Positions 5,812 through 18,183 of a stretch of DNA of 46,151 bases are shown here, piece after piece. Within the stretch, counting starts at the first letter, position 1, and every line of letters begins with the position of its first letter. The stretch lies in the NCBI GenBank assembly GCA_902611135.1, contig CACLYL010000006.1, positions 1-46,151 on the forward strand. The letters are read 5' to 3'. The notes under the pieces are model-generated. The model did not search any database, was not told the origin of the DNA, and saw only the letters and a list, made by a program, of their open reading frames with translations. This DNA is from an uncultured Fidelibacterota bacterium (GTDB lineage Bacteria; Fidelibacterota; Marinisomatia; Marinisomatales; UBA1611). The translations under genes and the position numbers were made by a program.

Positions 5812-6432
5812 TCAAATGTAATCTTTACTAAAATTTATTTCTTCACCAATAGCATACCTGATAAATCTACGAATACTTATATTCTCACCTAAAGTTGAGA
5901 TAGATTCAGAAAGAATATCAGAAATCTTTTTTTCTTGGTCCTTGATAAAAGTCTGATCAACTAAGCAATTCTCTTGGTAAAACTTTGTTAATCTACCTTC
6001 TACCATTTTTTCAATGATTTTTTCGGGTTTATTTTCAGCCCTGGCTTGCTCTAGCAAAACTTTTTTTTCCCGGTCAAGAGTGTTTATGTCAATTGAATCT
6101 CGATTCAAGCACATTGGATTAGTTGCAGCGATGTGCATAGCAAGATTGTGAGCAAGATCTCTAAATCCATCAGTCTTTGCTACGAAATCAGTTTCGCAAT
6201 TTAGCTCGATTAGTACCCCCAATTTTCCACCAGCATGAATATATGAATATACTATTCCTTCCTTAGTATCTCTGGATCCTTTCTTTTCAGCTTTCGCGGC
6301 TCCAGTTTTTCTTAAATAATCAATTGCCTTATCAATATCACCCTTAGATTCAACTAGTGCTCTTTTACAATCCATCATTCCTGAACCTGTTTTTTGACGT
6401 AATTCTTTAACTAATGCAGCACTTATACCCAT
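5812..6432 (-). CDS. tsf: Elongation factor Ts, short form
   Basis: EF-Ts is the guanine nucleotide exchange factor for EF-Tu. The N-terminal TS-N/UBA domain (residues 1-40) has LRQKTGSGMMDCKRAL. TDFVAKTDGF near residues 80-89 is the EF-Tu contact motif. At 206 residues it is the short type with a single core subdomain, shorter than the roughly 280 of E. coli, but it ends naturally and I see no truncation. The ATG shares one base with the rpsB stop in a TAATG overlap, indicating translational coupling to S2. Confidence 0.96.
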   Translation of the reverse strand: MGISAALVKELRQKTGSGMMDCKRALVESKGDIDKAIDYLRKTGAAKAEKKGSRDTKEGIVYSYIHAGGKLGVLIELNCETDFVAKTDGFRDLAHNLAMHIAATNPMCLNRDSIDINTLDREKKVLLEQARAENKPEKIIEKMVEGRLTKFYQENCLVDQTFIKDQEKKISDILSESISTLGENISIRRFIRYAIGEEINFSKDYI

Positions 6433-11917: not shown

Positions 11918-12853
11918 TTACCATGGTAATTGATTTAGATCAATATTCCCACCGGTTAAAACTATTCCAATATTCTGATTTCTAAAATTTGATTTGTTAC
12001 TGATAACAGCTGCTAAAGCTATTGAGCATGATGGCTCCACAATTATTTTGAGTCTATTTAGAATCAATTTTAAACTTTTTATAATATCATCTTCTGAAAC
12101 AACAATTATACCATCTACTAATTCTTGGATAATTGGAAAAGTAATTGATCCAATTTGAGCCCTTAAACCATCACAAACAGTATTTGTTGTTATATTTGTC
12201 TCTATCTTACCAGATTGTATAGATCTAAATGTATCATCCGCTTCTGATGGTTCTGCTCCAAAAATTTTTATCGACGGATTTATTTTTTTAACATATGATA
12301 ATACACCACTTAGCAAGCCGCCACCGCTTACAGGGACAACTATAGCATCTAGATTAGGAATATCTTCAATAAACTCTTTACCAATTGTTGATTGTCCTAA
12401 AATTATATGTTTATTATCGTATGGGTGAATTACCTCAACATCCCCCATTGTTTTTAATTTAGTTAATGCCCTCTCTCGAGATTGATTACTTGGATTACAC
12501 CATACAACTCTACCCCCATTTCGTATAACATTATTTACTTTAATTTTTGAGGTGTTTTTTGGCATTACAACAATTGTTGAGCCATTTCTCTTGGAGACGG
12601 CCATCGAAAGCGCAGCACCATGGTTTCCCGATGATACAGTTACAATATCTCCCTTAAAACTTTTTGCACTTAATTGCAGAACTGCATTTGTTGCACCTCT
12701 AATTTTGAATGAACCAGATTTTTGAAAATTCTCTGATTTAAAGTACAAATTAGCAGAAGTCAACTTGTTCAGACTTTCGCTAGTTAAAACAGGCGTCCTG
12801 TGAATGTATGGCCTTATCCTATCATGGGCTCTTTTCATTTCACTTATTAACAT
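11918..12853 (-). CDS. PLP-dependent threonine dehydratase / serine racemase-like enzyme
   Basis: Fold type II PLP enzymes of this group deaminate threonine or serine, or racemise serine. The 311-residue protein has the PLP lysine in GSFKIRGA (Lys50), the substrate loop SSGNHGAALSMA, and the phosphate-binding glycine loop PVSGGGLLSG. There is no C-terminal ACT domain, so it is not the feedback-regulated biosynthetic IlvA. I prefer ATG 12853, which gives the usual YIHRTPVL distance. The frame can extend to a TTG at 12919 inside the mutL end, but those 22 Lys-rich residues look untranslated. Threonine ammonia-lyase and serine racemase cannot be told apart here. Confidence 0.85.
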   Translation of the reverse strand: MLISEMKRAHDRIRPYIHRTPVLTSESLNKLTSANLYFKSENFQKSGSFKIRGATNAVLQLSAKSFKGDIVTVSSGNHGAALSMAVSKRNGSTIVVMPKNTSKIKVNNVIRNGGRVVWCNPSNQSRERALTKLKTMGDVEVIHPYDNKHIILGQSTIGKEFIEDIPNLDAIVVPVSGGGLLSGVLSYVKKINPSIKIFGAEPSEADDTFRSIQSGKIETNITTNTVCDGLRAQIGSITFPIIQELVDGIIVVSEDDIIKSLKLILNRLKIIVEPSCSIALAAVISNKSNFRNQNIGIVLTGGNIDLNQLPW

Positions 12854-12899
12854 AAAACGTTTGTACTTTTTAATTAGTTTAATTTTTAAATCGTATATG

Positions 12900-14687
12900 T
12901 CAACCTTTTGGTCTTTCAAACCTACTATCTAGTTCATCTATTGACATTTTAATAATAATAGGTCTCCCATGCGGACAATAATATGGATGTTTTGTTAAAA
13001 ACAATCTATTGACAAGCTCTTGCATTTCTTGCTTAGTCAGAGAATCTCCTGCTTTTATAGCAGCTTTACATGAGAACATAGCCGCCAAATCTTCTTGAAA
13101 GGAGCTATATTGTTTTTTTTGAGATGAAAAGTTATCTAAAATTTCTCTAATTATTACTTTTTCACTTCCCAGAGCCATATCAGTTGGTATTGCTTCAATT
13201 CTAATAGTTGTTTCAGATTCCTTTTTCATTTTAAAACCAATTTTTTCGAGATAAGGTAAGATATCAAGCAATCTATCAATATCATTCAATGAGAAGCTGA
13301 TACTTTCAGGAAATAAAACTGTTTGAGATGACATTGAAGTTGACTCAAAAGCTTTAAGTGCATCTTCATAGAGTATCCGCTCATGAGCAACATGTTGATC
13401 AATTATTACTAAACCACTATTTATTTCAGAAAGAATGTATTTTCGATGAATTTGCCATATGTTTTCTGTAGCAATTGGTTCACTTTGATTTGTTTTTATT
13501 TCAGCCAACTTTGAAACATATGTTTTTGCTCGCTCTAATTTCTTTTGAACTGGTGTGACCATATCAGAAATTTTTAAATCTAAGGAATCTTGAAAAACAG
13601 ATTGATTCTTTATATTTTTTTCAATTTTAAATAAAGGCCTATCGTTTAAACCATTTAGATCCATTTTTTGAGGTTTAAAAGCAGGATTACTAAAATTTGG
13701 TATAGTATCTAAGATAGTTCCTAAAGAATCTCTAATTCCAGCTTTTAGAACACTAAAAACTCTCCACTCATCAATGAAGCGTACTTCTGTTTTCATCGGA
13801 TGAATATTGACATCGACTTGATCAGGTGGCATTTTTATGTTTATTAAAAAAAACGGATATTCCCCGCGTTTTATTAATGATTCATAGGCATTATAAACTG
13901 CTTTATTAATTAATTTATCCTTTATGAATCTATTGTTTACAAAAAGATATTGCTCACCTGGTCTTTTTCTAATGAGGTTTAAATTTCCAATGAATCCAGA
14001 AAAAATATAATCTTCCTTAACTAAATTTACAGGCAATAGGTTTGATGAATATGTTGGATCCATCAAATTATTAATTCTATCCTCTAAATTTTCCCTTTGG
14101 ACATGAAAAATAGTTCTATTATCTGAGATAATCCGAAAGACTTTATCAGGAAAAGCTAACCCGTATCTTCGCACTACTTCTATTATTTTCCTGAGTTCAG
14201 TTCTTGGTGTTTTAAGAAATTTTTTACGAACGGGAGTATTAAAAAATAAGTTTTGAATAGTTACTTCAGTTCCTCCGATTTTAGCATGGGGCTGAACGTC
14301 TTTGGAAATGCCTCCTGTTACATTAAGTTTGTAACCATCGTATTCTTTATTATTTGATATAACTTGTAGATCACAAACTGATGCGATACTAGATAGAGCC
14401 TCACCTCGAAATCCTAAAGTCTCAATGTTATAGAGATCATTTAAATTATTAATTTTACTTGTGTTAAACCTTAATATTGATAAAGGTAAATCATCCCTCA
14501 TAATTCCATCACCATTATCTCTGACTTGGATTAACTGATGTCCACCTTTCTCAACAATAACTGAAATATCATTTGCATTTGCATCAATACTATTTTCGAT
14601 CAATTCTTTTACAACTGATGCTGGATTTTCAACAACCTCGCCTGCTGCAATTTTATTCCTTAAGTCTTCTGAAAGTGCTTTTATCAA
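12900..14687 (-). CDS. mutL: DNA mismatch repair protein MutL (endonuclease type)
   Basis: MutL couples MutS mismatch recognition to strand removal. The GHKL ATPase domain shows NKIAAGEVV, ELIENSIDA and DNGDGI in the first 65 residues, then GFRGEALSSI and NIHPMKTEVRF. The C-terminal domain has DQHVAHERILYE from residue 430, the metal-binding endonuclease motif with one Ala-to-Val change. It also has CKAAIKAG and CPHGRP (571-576). The protein should therefore nick DNA itself, as in MutH-less bacteria. The start is TTG at 14687, four bases after the ftcD stop; the N-terminus aligns well with the family and no ATG is nearby. Length 595 is normal. Confidence 0.95.
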   Translation of the reverse strand: MIKALSEDLRNKIAAGEVVENPASVVKELIENSIDANANDISVIVEKGGHQLIQVRDNGDGIMRDDLPLSILRFNTSKINNLNDLYNIETLGFRGEALSSIASVCDLQVISNNKEYDGYKLNVTGGISKDVQPHAKIGGTEVTIQNLFFNTPVRKKFLKTPRTELRKIIEVVRRYGLAFPDKVFRIISDNRTIFHVQRENLEDRINNLMDPTYSSNLLPVNLVKEDYIFSGFIGNLNLIRKRPGEQYLFVNNRFIKDKLINKAVYNAYESLIKRGEYPFFLINIKMPPDQVDVNIHPMKTEVRFIDEWRVFSVLKAGIRDSLGTILDTIPNFSNPAFKPQKMDLNGLNDRPLFKIEKNIKNQSVFQDSLDLKISDMVTPVQKKLERAKTYVSKLAEIKTNQSEPIATENIWQIHRKYILSEINSGLVIIDQHVAHERILYEDALKAFESTSMSSQTVLFPESISFSLNDIDRLLDILPYLEKIGFKMKKESETTIRIEAIPTDMALGSEKVIIREILDNFSSQKKQYSSFQEDLAAMFSCKAAIKAGDSLTKQEMQELVNRLFLTKHPYYCPHGRPIIIKMSIDELDSRFERPKG

Positions 14688-14691
14688 TGTA

Positions 14692-16389
14692 TTAACTTTT
14701 GATTAAACTAATAACTTTTTTATAAATCATCACTGATATCTTTTCAGCACTCTGAACAATACTATCTGCTTCTTTCAACCTATTATCGCAATATATTTTA
14801 TCCTCTATTGATGAAGTATTAATCAATACGTTCAAATACGCTCCCCTGACGCTTGATACTGCAAGCTCACTAGCTACACCTAAATCAGATACAGAATTAG
14901 GATTGCAGACTTTTACTAATTCAGATGATAATTCTAAAATTCTAAGAGAAAGGTTTGCTGTTTTAAGCGGAATTTCTAGAGCATTTTTGTTTGCCATTAA
15001 AATTTGATCTCTTTTGTACATCGTCTCTTTTTTTGTTGAGTTGGGCAGACGATTCGCATCTACAACTGCATTAAAAGCATTAGTATCCTCATCTATTAAT
15101 CTAGACAATTTTTTTTTTAATAATTGAGAACCCTCACCCCATTCATTATACAGATTTCTATTTTTGATTAGCTCTTTTTTGTCATAGCTTAATGCTGAAA
15201 CCATCGAGATCAATGAAGCACTCAATGCACCTGCTAACGCAGATACTGTCCCTCCTCCAGGAGCAGGACTATTTCTAGACAGTTCATTAATGAAATCAAT
15301 ATTTTTCATAGAAATCAAATTTCTCTTTTGTTTTTTAATAGCATATTCAATGATTTTTTCATTTTTATTAAATTTAACAAGATTATTAAGGCCTAATGAT
15401 TGAACCGCCGTTTCAATAATATCTGTTTCAGGCAATCCAGTTGGTCGCTGTTGCTTTTGCAAATAATATTTTCCAGCTATTATTAATGCATCCAAAGGAA
15501 TTAATCCTACTATTTCACTGCCAGTTACTATGAGGCCTCTTTCATTTGCTAATTTATTAGCCTCATCATAAACTTCATGAATAGTAGAAACCTTATAATT
15601 ATTTAGATTTATCGAAATTTGTGCTTGATCAAACTTTGTAACAAACCACCCTATTCCTTTAACATCTTTAAATTTTCCAGGCACTTTTACAGCTTTACCA
15701 AATTCATCCCTAACAATTTCACCATCCAACAAATTTTTTGAAAGTGGATTAGGCACTCGTTTACTCCTACCTATCTCTCTGAGTTCGAATGCGATATCGG
15801 TAGCGATTCTTGGATTTCTGGTGTTTAAATTTATGTTATATGCTATTAAAAAATCACGGCAACCAACAATTGTAGCACCATTAAAGTGATTCATTTTTGA
15901 AGGGCCAAAATCTGGAATCCACTCTTTACTAGATAGCTTTTTCTCTAAGCCCTCATATTCACCTAGCCTTATATCTGGCAATTTTTTCCTGAAAGACAAA
16001 TTAGAAGATTTTTCATAGAGATATACAGGAATTCCTAGCTTCTCGCCTATCCTTTTTCCTAATTCTAGTGATAGTTTTATGCACTCTTCCTCACTTACAT
16101 TTTTTATCGGAATTAAAGGGCAAACATCTGTAGAACCGATTCGCGGATGAGTTCCTGCATGCTTACGCATATCTATAATTTTAGACGCTTTTTTTATTCC
16201 ATTAAATACTCCCTTGAGCACTTCAGATGGTGACCCAATTATAGTGATAACTGTACGGTTGGTATCAAATCCCATATCAACATCTAAAATTAAAGCATCA
16301 GAGCTCTCCTTTATTGATGAAATAATTTCATCAATTTTACTTTTATTTCTACCCTCAGAAAAGTTTGGTACACATTCAATTAATCTCAT
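14692..16389 (-). CDS. ftcD: Fused glutamate formimidoyltransferase / formimidoyl-THF cyclodeaminase
   Basis: The two-domain enzyme moves a formimino group from formiminoglutamate to tetrahydrofolate, then releases ammonia to give methenyl-THF, ending one route of histidine breakdown. Residues 1-300 are the transferase, starting with LIECVPNFSEGR and including MRKHAGTHPRIGSTDVCPLIPI. Residues from about 365 to 565 are the all-helical cyclodeaminase with NSPAPGGGTVSALAGALSASL. Total length 565 matches animal and Bacteroidetes-type fusions. No other hut gene is in the window. The ATG shares a base with the stop of the small upstream ORF (TAATG). Confidence 0.93.
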   Translation of the reverse strand: MRLIECVPNFSEGRNKSKIDEIISSIKESSDALILDVDMGFDTNRTVITIIGSPSEVLKGVFNGIKKASKIIDMRKHAGTHPRIGSTDVCPLIPIKNVSEEECIKLSLELGKRIGEKLGIPVYLYEKSSNLSFRKKLPDIRLGEYEGLEKKLSSKEWIPDFGPSKMNHFNGATIVGCRDFLIAYNINLNTRNPRIATDIAFELREIGRSKRVPNPLSKNLLDGEIVRDEFGKAVKVPGKFKDVKGIGWFVTKFDQAQISINLNNYKVSTIHEVYDEANKLANERGLIVTGSEIVGLIPLDALIIAGKYYLQKQQRPTGLPETDIIETAVQSLGLNNLVKFNKNEKIIEYAIKKQKRNLISMKNIDFINELSRNSPAPGGGTVSALAGALSASLISMVSALSYDKKELIKNRNLYNEWGEGSQLLKKKLSRLIDEDTNAFNAVVDANRLPNSTKKETMYKRDQILMANKNALEIPLKTANLSLRILELSSELVKVCNPNSVSDLGVASELAVSSVRGAYLNVLINTSSIEDKIYCDNRLKEADSIVQSAEKISVMIYKKVISLIKS

Positions 16390-16517
16390 TAAAGGATCGT
16401 CTCCGATAGGCTGTTTAAGTAATTAATTAAATATATTAATGCAAATAACGCGATAACATATTTTATTATAGGTCTTTTTTTATTTCTATTAAGGTTTAAG
16501 TTTTTAAAATATGTCAT
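16389..16517 (-). CDS. Small 42-residue single-pass membrane protein
   Basis: I read this ORF directly from the sequence: ATG at 16517-16515, 42 codons, TAA at 16391-16389. The N-terminal 19 residues are basic (Lys5, Arg11, Lys13, Lys14, Arg15, Lys19). Residues 17-34 are a continuous hydrophobic stretch (VIALFALIYLI at its core), and the last eight residues are polar, so a single-pass inner-membrane protein with a cytoplasmic basic end is likely. Both ends overlap neighbours by one base as TAATG: its ATG with the M50 protease stop, and its stop with the ftcD ATG. Such exact packing, seen elsewhere here at rpsB-tsf and prfB-lysS, argues that it is translated. No family recognised; it might assist the protease. 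Confidence 0.65.
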   Translation of the reverse strand: MTYFKNLNLNRNKKRPIIKYVIALFALIYLINYLNSLSETIL

Positions 16518-17146
16518 TACACTCCAGCAAACAAAAACATAAAGAAGTTAACAAATGGTCTCATTAAAAACCATATTATTGAAAATCCTGTTAAATAACC
16601 AAACAATATTAATCCAAACAAAACCTGGGGACCATATGATTGTATTTTTAAAGCAAGCTGAGGGTTATTTTTCATTAGATATCCAGAAAAAATCTGGGAA
16701 CCATCTAATGGAGAAACTGGAATTAAATTAAAAATTGCTAGAGAAATATTAATGCTAGTAAAATAGTAAACCATTAAAAGTAAATTATCAGATAAAATAG
16801 GGTAGGGCCCTTGAAGACGAAACACTAAACCACTAATGAGGGCAAGCAGAAGATTGGAGACCGGACCTGCGGCAGCTATTTTCATCATATCACTTCTTGG
16901 TTTTTTAAGAAACCTAGGATCTACTGGTACAGGTTTAGCCCATCCAAAACCAACAAATAAGATCATTAATGAACCAAATAGATCTAAATGGGCCAATGGA
17001 TTTAGGGTTAATCTACCTAACCTTGCTGCTGTATTATCACCACATTTATATGCCATCCAAGCATGCGCAAATTCATGGAACGATAGAGCAAACATTAATG
17101 TCGGTATCAATAAAACCAAAGCCTCTGCTGGTAGTCTAAATAACAT
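16517..17146 (-). CDS. Site-2 protease family (M50) membrane metalloprotease
   Basis: This is an intramembrane zinc protease of the small YwhC/Rv-type M50 group. The 209 residues form about five or six membrane segments. The zinc motif HEFAH (residues 24-28) lies in the first transmembrane region, and the second motif NLIPVSPLDG supplies the third ligand, Asp, near the C-terminal half. There is no PDZ domain, unlike RseP. Substrates are unknown. The start is ATG at 17146, two bases after xerC/D; its stop overlaps the ATG of the 42-residue membrane protein. Confidence 0.9.
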   Translation of the reverse strand: MLFRLPAEALVLLIPTLMFALSFHEFAHAWMAYKCGDNTAARLGRLTLNPLAHLDLFGSLMILFVGFGWAKPVPVDPRFLKKPRSDMMKIAAAGPVSNLLLALISGLVFRLQGPYPILSDNLLLMVYYFTSINISLAIFNLIPVSPLDGSQIFSGYLMKNNPQLALKIQSYGPQVLFGLILFGYLTGFSIIWFLMRPFVNFFMFLFAGV

Positions 17147-17148
17147 AT

Positions 17149-18183
17149 TTAGCTTCTTGGATGATGATTTTTATATACCGATTTAAGATAATTTTTATCC
17201 ATATGAGTATAAATTTGAGTAGTAGAAATGTCGCTGTGACCTAAGAGAGCTTGTACAAACCTAAGATCAGCTCCTCCCTTTAAAAGGTGAGTAGCAAAAG
17301 AATGCCTAAAAGTATGGGGTTTAGGAGATATCCTTAAATTAAGATTAACAGTTGAGATTTTAATTATTTCATTTATAATTTGTCTTGTTAATCTTCTTCC
17401 ACTTTTGCTTAAAAAAACTTCATCACTCTTTCTTTTTTTTGCATATTCAGGTCGATCAAAGGTTAAATATCTATTCAAATTTCTATAAGCTTTCCCTAAT
17501 AATGGAACAAGTCTTTCCTTGCTACCTTTCCCAAGGATTTTTAAAAAACCTTCATTTTTAGAATCTTCTACTATTATGTTATTAATTTTTAATTCACAAA
17601 CCTCACTCGTCCTTAAACCACATCCATATAGAAGATAAACTATTGCCAAATTCCTCTTTTTAAATTCGCTGTTGCCAAAAACAATTGAAATATTATTTAA
17701 TATGCTCTCAATTTCCTCTACGTTTAAGTAATCTGGAATTTTTCTATTAATTTTTGGTAACTCAATATTTGAACTGGGATCTATTTTTGTAAAAGAACCT
17801 AAAAATAAATATTTATGAAAAATTTTAATTGAAGACATAGCTCTTCTGATGCTTTTCGGAGCAAGAGGTTTTTCTATTTTTGAAATTTTAGATTCTAAAT
17901 TTGTGATATCGCTCATACTTTGTTTTTTTTCAATTCTCATTCTTAGTTCTGTAGTTATTTTTTTCTTCGCTTGCCCTTTGTAAAGATATGAGCCAGTTTT
18001 TGAGAGCAATCTTAGGTAAGAGCGAATATGAATTTTATCAATATACTTAACATTTTCAACATTGCACACCTCAAATAAAAAGGATAAATAATCATTTAAT
18101 GATAATTTATAATTATAAATCGTATTAATAGATTTATTTTCAACTCTTAGTTGCAATAAAAATTGCTGAAGATAGGATTTCAT
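17149..18183 (-). CDS. Tyrosine recombinase XerC/XerD-like
   Basis: Xer recombinases resolve chromosome dimers at dif. The catalytic residues are present: Arg in [20 protein letters not shown] (His, Arg), [16 protein letters not shown] (His, Tyr). The N-terminal SAM-like core-binding domain starts typically with residues 1-60. At 344 residues it is longer than the usual 295-305. The excess is about 42 Lys-rich residues (roughly 65-106) between the two halves of the core-binding domain, just before APKSIRR. It sits among housekeeping genes with no att-like repeats or mobile genes, so it is probably the chromosomal Xer rather than an integrase. C or D type cannot be decided. Confidence 0.9.

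Follow-up and report, generated by a model that had tools for sequence, protein, structure and literature searches.

The window, a 46,151-nucleotide stretch of DNA from an uncultured Fidelibacterota bacterium, contains a small open reading frame between the genes for an M50 site-2-type protease and for FtcD (Table 1). From the M50 stop to the ftcD start there is a gap of 127 bases, and this frame fills it from ATG to TAA, with a TAATG overlap at either end and at the coordinates reported in the first-pass annotation. The translation likewise agrees with what was described there, a basic N-terminus, one membrane helix at residues 17 to 34 and a short tail, and this is the only hydrophobic segment in the protein. 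The two further TAATG junctions listed by the same annotation under the labels rpsB-tsf and prfB-lysS are found at positions 6432 and 40050. Of 28 close junctions tabulated for the window, 4 are one-base overlaps of this type.

Table 1. Coordinates of the small membrane protein gene, its junctions and its neighbors in the window
Feature	Position	Strand	Description
XerC/XerD-type tyrosine recombinase gene	17149..18183	(-)	Upstream of M50; PF00589
M50 site-2-type protease gene	16517..17146	(-)	209 aa, minimal; PF02163, E 5.5e-18
TAATG overlap, M50 stop / small-gene start	16513..16521	(-)	AGTGTAATGACAT
Small membrane protein gene	16389..16517	(-)	42 aa, ATG...TAA; translation MTYFKNLNLNRNKKRPIIKYVIALFALIYLINYLNSLSETIL
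Regions of the small protein			Basic N-terminus, residues 1-16; helix, 17-34; short tail, 35-42
TAATG overlap, small-gene stop / ftcD start	16385..16393	(-)	CCTTTAATGAGAT
ftcD	14692..16389	(-)	565 aa; FTCD_N, FTCD, FTCD_C; TIGR02024, 352 bits
mutL	12900..14687	(-)	Downstream of ftcD, same gene run; TIGR00585, 485 bits

The M50 protein has intact catalytic motifs, HEFAH and NLIPVSPLDG, which correspond to the HExxH and N-P-DG signatures of the site-2 proteases (S2Ps), and it resembles MjS2P (3b4r) both in sequence (E 5e-5) and in fold. Pfam searches find no PDZ or CBS domain in it. It is not an RseP (group I) protein, having neither the PDZ domain nor the length of RseP (~400 to 450 residues) and scoring 18.6 bits against TIGR00054, where the cutoff is 147.6. 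A separate, larger M50 protein encoded on contig C10 is RseP-like and a better fit to RseP. The product of ftcD is a fused glutamate formimidoyltransferase/cyclodeaminase, encoded by a single gene in the window; in several families, G044, G053, G115 and other genomes contain two separate ftcD matches, suggesting a split gene or a large insertion. The recombinase scores 272.6 bits against the XerD model TIGR02225, below its cutoff of 329.6. A gene for a threo-3-hydroxyaspartate/threonine-type ammonia-lyase occupies positions 11918 to 12919; it starts with TTG and shares 20 bases with the end of mutL.

The first-pass annotation considered the exact double coupling hard to obtain by chance. Taken alone, the exact fit is no more than moderately surprising: shuffling the gap leaves a 41-codon frame open in 1.8% of trials, and among shuffled window stretches 4.5% have one. 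Since such frames are not very rare and TAATG overlaps are common in the window, the fit is suggestive but is not proof on its own. The comparison with related genomes is far more informative. A basic, single-helix frame of the same size, one per interval and in the same pattern, is found in the gap at 49 of 49 loci that have M50 and ftcD on one contig (the window included), with lengths of ~36 to 53 residues. Dozens more loci from a separate genome collection, which partly covers the same genomes, show the same frame.

Nei-Gojobori estimates with the Jukes-Cantor correction, made on 31 independent pairs with each locus used once, give a pooled dN/dS of 0.28 for the frame of the small gene, a figure inflated by a few divergent pairs that are probably misaligned through the choice of start, and 1.09 and 1.30 for the other two frames. 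By the same pairwise method, M50 has a dN/dS of 0.067. The window protein is a divergent member of its family, yet its homology to the rest is not explained by shared composition or topology alone: it scores 34.1 bits against a leave-one-out HMM, compared to a maximum of 17.2 bits among 5,000 region-wise, topology-preserving shuffles, in which the three regions of the protein were kept. Frameshifts or stops in this frame in relatives had been named at the outset as grounds for rejecting the gene; they were sought, but the frame is kept at every one of the 49 loci and shows purifying selection in relatives, so this test came out in favor of the gene. A search of the gap for RNA elements gives no Rfam match at E 0.1. 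On the comparative evidence, the small frame is a genuine gene for a small membrane protein, coupled to its neighbors, conserved in relatives and under purifying selection. That it is a chance frame in a short AT-rich gap is refuted by its conservation, dN/dS, leave-one-out score and phylum-wide HMM matches and has practically no probability left, even with open frames of this length appearing in shuffled sequence.

The 90 distinct members of the family range from 36 to 72 residues, with a median of 43. In 83 of them, the start lies within -4 to +10 bases of the M50 stop, with 31 at a one-base overlap and 20 at a four-base overlap; exact one-base coupling on both sides is found at five loci, the window, L069, L070, L077 and L080. 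The charge on the N-terminal side of the helix exceeds that on the C-terminal side in all 90 members (medians, +6 and +1), and the helix is followed by a tail of 0 to 9 residues (median, 5.5). Because of this charge excess and the short tail, the expected topology is N-in/C-out. In an alignment of the full family, one F is almost invariant and a K/R-R-I/L motif recurs, while R-S-L-(W) marks the entry to the helix and Y-L its end; the N-terminal arm has the consensus [YF]-F-[KR]-R-[IL]...R-R...R-S-L-W. At locus L007, the small gene naturally lies in frame with M50 across the M50 stop. The AlphaFold2 model of a reading through this stop (51 rows, no contact output) has a confident M50 core and a helix at residues 231 to 253, with a pLDDT of ~71 to 81 for the helix block, and a linker that is unreliable at a pLDDT under 50. 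A fold search with this model recovers only S2Ps.

An HMM built from 42 members matches, at E values below 1e-3, 25 of the 31 families of the phylum among the matches listed, including families with a changed gene order. These families, f1 to f31, follow the numbering of the search tool rather than formal taxonomy, and most of the genomes searched are incomplete metagenome-assembled genomes (MAGs) or single-cell genomes. Versions of 32 to 51 residues occur in the same place and with the same topology in f16 to f19; they are assigned by position and topology, their scores being too low to prove sequence homology. The relatives come from genomes titled Candidatus Neomarinimicrobiota or Marinimicrobia. 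Nine genomes from outside Marinimicrobia have a related M50 but no small gene, and searches for plasmid-borne relatives found none. Two loci labeled as gammaproteobacterial (L055) and Sulfurimonas (L121) have a Marinimicrobia-like M50, with 77% and 62% identity, respectively, and are probably misbinned contigs. Judging from the HMM matches, most of the ocean phylum Marinimicrobia (Neomarinimicrobiota) has conserved this small membrane protein.

No Pfam, NCBIfam or PHROG family fits the small protein, and the window protein gives no family match at E 0.001. Searches with the family members yield only sporadic hits, each involving one to five members and none better than E 0.002, and the best match in PHROGs has an E value of 0.063. 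The Hok-type toxins do not account for the family either: a single member of 42 matches NF007279, at E 0.0024, and the others give no match. The small protein is best filed as representing a new family of conserved small membrane proteins that are encoded with, and perhaps act on, a membrane protease.

The first-pass annotation described the gene as locked between M50 and ftcD. This holds as a rule but not universally: in at least six lineages ftcD lies elsewhere or is gone, and in one lineage it is M50 that has separated from the small gene. The arrangement with the small gene directly behind M50 and ftcD moved or not found occurs in f3/g13 (where the gap is 520 to 846 bases), f24, f25, f27, f29/g77 and f30/g82. 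Among these, no ftcD is found in any of the searched f25 genomes. The reverse case, in which the small gene precedes ftcD and M50 lies elsewhere, occurs in f23/g62 alone among the loci examined; in g63 and g64 of the same family, the small gene adjoins neither M50 nor ftcD. Judged by eye, the neighbors of the relocated f23 copies include PurM together with a dihydroorotase-like gene, or genes resembling OsmC and ArgK. The f23 versions (L162 to L166 and L236 to L238) have an extra acidic motif N-terminal to the basic arm, PRPGKYVIxDEDEDKRFDF in g62 and g64 and RRSRWIIKDPDEDKR in g63, which is absent from the M50-linked versions. The asymmetry of these breaks in gene order shows that the small gene is clearly more tightly linked to M50 than to ftcD.

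In f15, whose genomes are reduced, M50 is retained but the small gene and ftcD are both missing; hence, M50 does not always need the small gene. At loci L192 and L193, in genomes of 0.7 to 1.0 Mb, a miaA-like gene directly follows M50, which suggests a block deletion. Nearly all M50 loci examined retain the xer-M50 pair, including those from which the small gene has relocated or disappeared, and xer is unseen beside M50 only in L234, where a contig end is near. Two assemblies, G128 (contigs C5 and C13) and G228 (C16 and C28), contain two M50-small gene-ftcD sets each, every M50 with its own small frame; these double sets may reflect a real duplication or a mixture of strains in the MAG. In a mirror-tree test, the partial distance correlations of the small protein are 0.234 with M50, 0.225 with XerD and 0.117 with FtcD, so that M50 is not singled out.

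Several functions might be considered for a gene in this position. If it were only a translational spacer or leader, its translation would feed ribosomes into ftcD and the peptide itself would be inert. The overlapping start and stop codons at either end of the gene, seen at four distinct loci besides the window, speak for such a device, but selection at the amino acid level, the conserved sequence motif and the conservation of the gene where it is not upstream of ftcD largely refute this idea and make it very improbable. The small protein could also be a membrane anchor or partner of FtcD that brings this folate enzyme to the membrane. Such a role is compatible with the f23/g62 arrangement, in which the small gene directly precedes ftcD without M50, and with the joint loss of ftcD and the small gene across f15. 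It is weakened by f25, where M50 is still followed by the small gene although no ftcD is found, and by at least five other lineages in which ftcD moved off and the small gene stayed with M50; we regard this association with FtcD as unlikely, if less so than the inert leader.

A more serious alternative is that of an autonomous small membrane protein with a cellular role of its own, such as stabilizing another membrane complex. Its cotranscription with M50 and ftcD would then merely stem from an old operon, and the coupling would set its dose. The f23 copies conserved beside unrelated genes, the loss of the small gene in f15 that leaves M50 in place, and a mirror-tree result that is not specific to M50 all favor this possibility. 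Against it stands the position of the small gene behind M50, often with overlapping codons, in most families and through at least six downstream changes. An autonomous role is accordingly a real possibility, to which we give roughly one chance in three.

The same observations bear on the suggestion of the first-pass annotation that the small protein is a partner or substrate of the site-2 protease. Its position behind M50, the asymmetric breaks and the predicted N-in/C-out topology speak for the suggestion; the unlinked f23 copies, the f15 genomes with M50 alone and the unspecific mirror-tree signal speak against it. We consider it about an even call that the small protein acts with M50, as a partner or as a substrate, through a link that is not obligate. 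In the likeliest mechanism, translational coupling would make the small protein directly after the PDZ-less M50 protease, and the product would insert N-in/C-out beside it, with the basic arm predicted to be cytoplasmic and a few tail residues outside. There it might be a small regulatory subunit, with its helix at the substrate gate of M50, or a dedicated small substrate of M50. The preferential linkage to M50, together with the predicted topology, fits either role, regulator or substrate; the physical interaction with M50 and its direction are what we infer. Proteins cut by S2Ps generally span the membrane once, with N-in/C-out orientation, and RseP of Escherichia coli directly cuts many small membrane proteins of ~50 aa or fewer (PMC10470546). 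By prediction, the small protein has the same properties, with a single span, N-in/C-out orientation and ~50 residues or fewer.

We tentatively propose, at slightly under even confidence, that this unnamed, phylum-specific family is a dedicated regulator or substrate of a minimal PDZ-less S2P and that the two form a new regulated-proteolysis pair in Marinimicrobia. The family is absent from the searched libraries and present in most families of an abundant uncultured ocean phylum. S2P groups without accessory domains are not extensively characterized (PMC10202637), and a coupled small protein beside a minimal S2P is a concrete candidate for protease regulation or for a cleavage target.

Among known systems, the S2Ps of groups II and IV, taken jointly here, lack accessory domains (Kinch et al. 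2006, cited by PMC10202637), and the neighboring M50 likewise consists of the S2P core only; with their limited characterization (PMC10202637), these groups offer no known partner for comparison. A closer parallel for a regulatory partner is BofA, which, with SpoIVFA, inhibits the S2P SpoIVFB in Bacillus. The likeness lies in a small membrane protein and a PDZ-less S2P, and the BofA transmembrane segment in the active-site cleft of the S2P provides a model for such a partner. However, BofA is predicted to cross the membrane twice and depends on SpoIVFA, whereas the window protein has one hydrophobic segment, forming a single helix, and is thus not a BofA-like inhibitor in this respect; at the window locus, no SpoIVFA-like gene was noted, no sequence match to the BofA system was found and the M50 is without a CBS match. 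The small substrates of E. coli RseP (YqfG, YkgR, HokB, HokE, Blr, CydX and others) are likewise ~40 to 50 residues long, with one helix and a predicted N-in/C-out topology, and share the cell with a site-2-type protease, as here. No sequence relationship between them and the window family was found. Those substrates were picked by screening, whereas the gene in the window is encoded beside, and its family usually coupled to, a different, minimal PDZ-less S2P.
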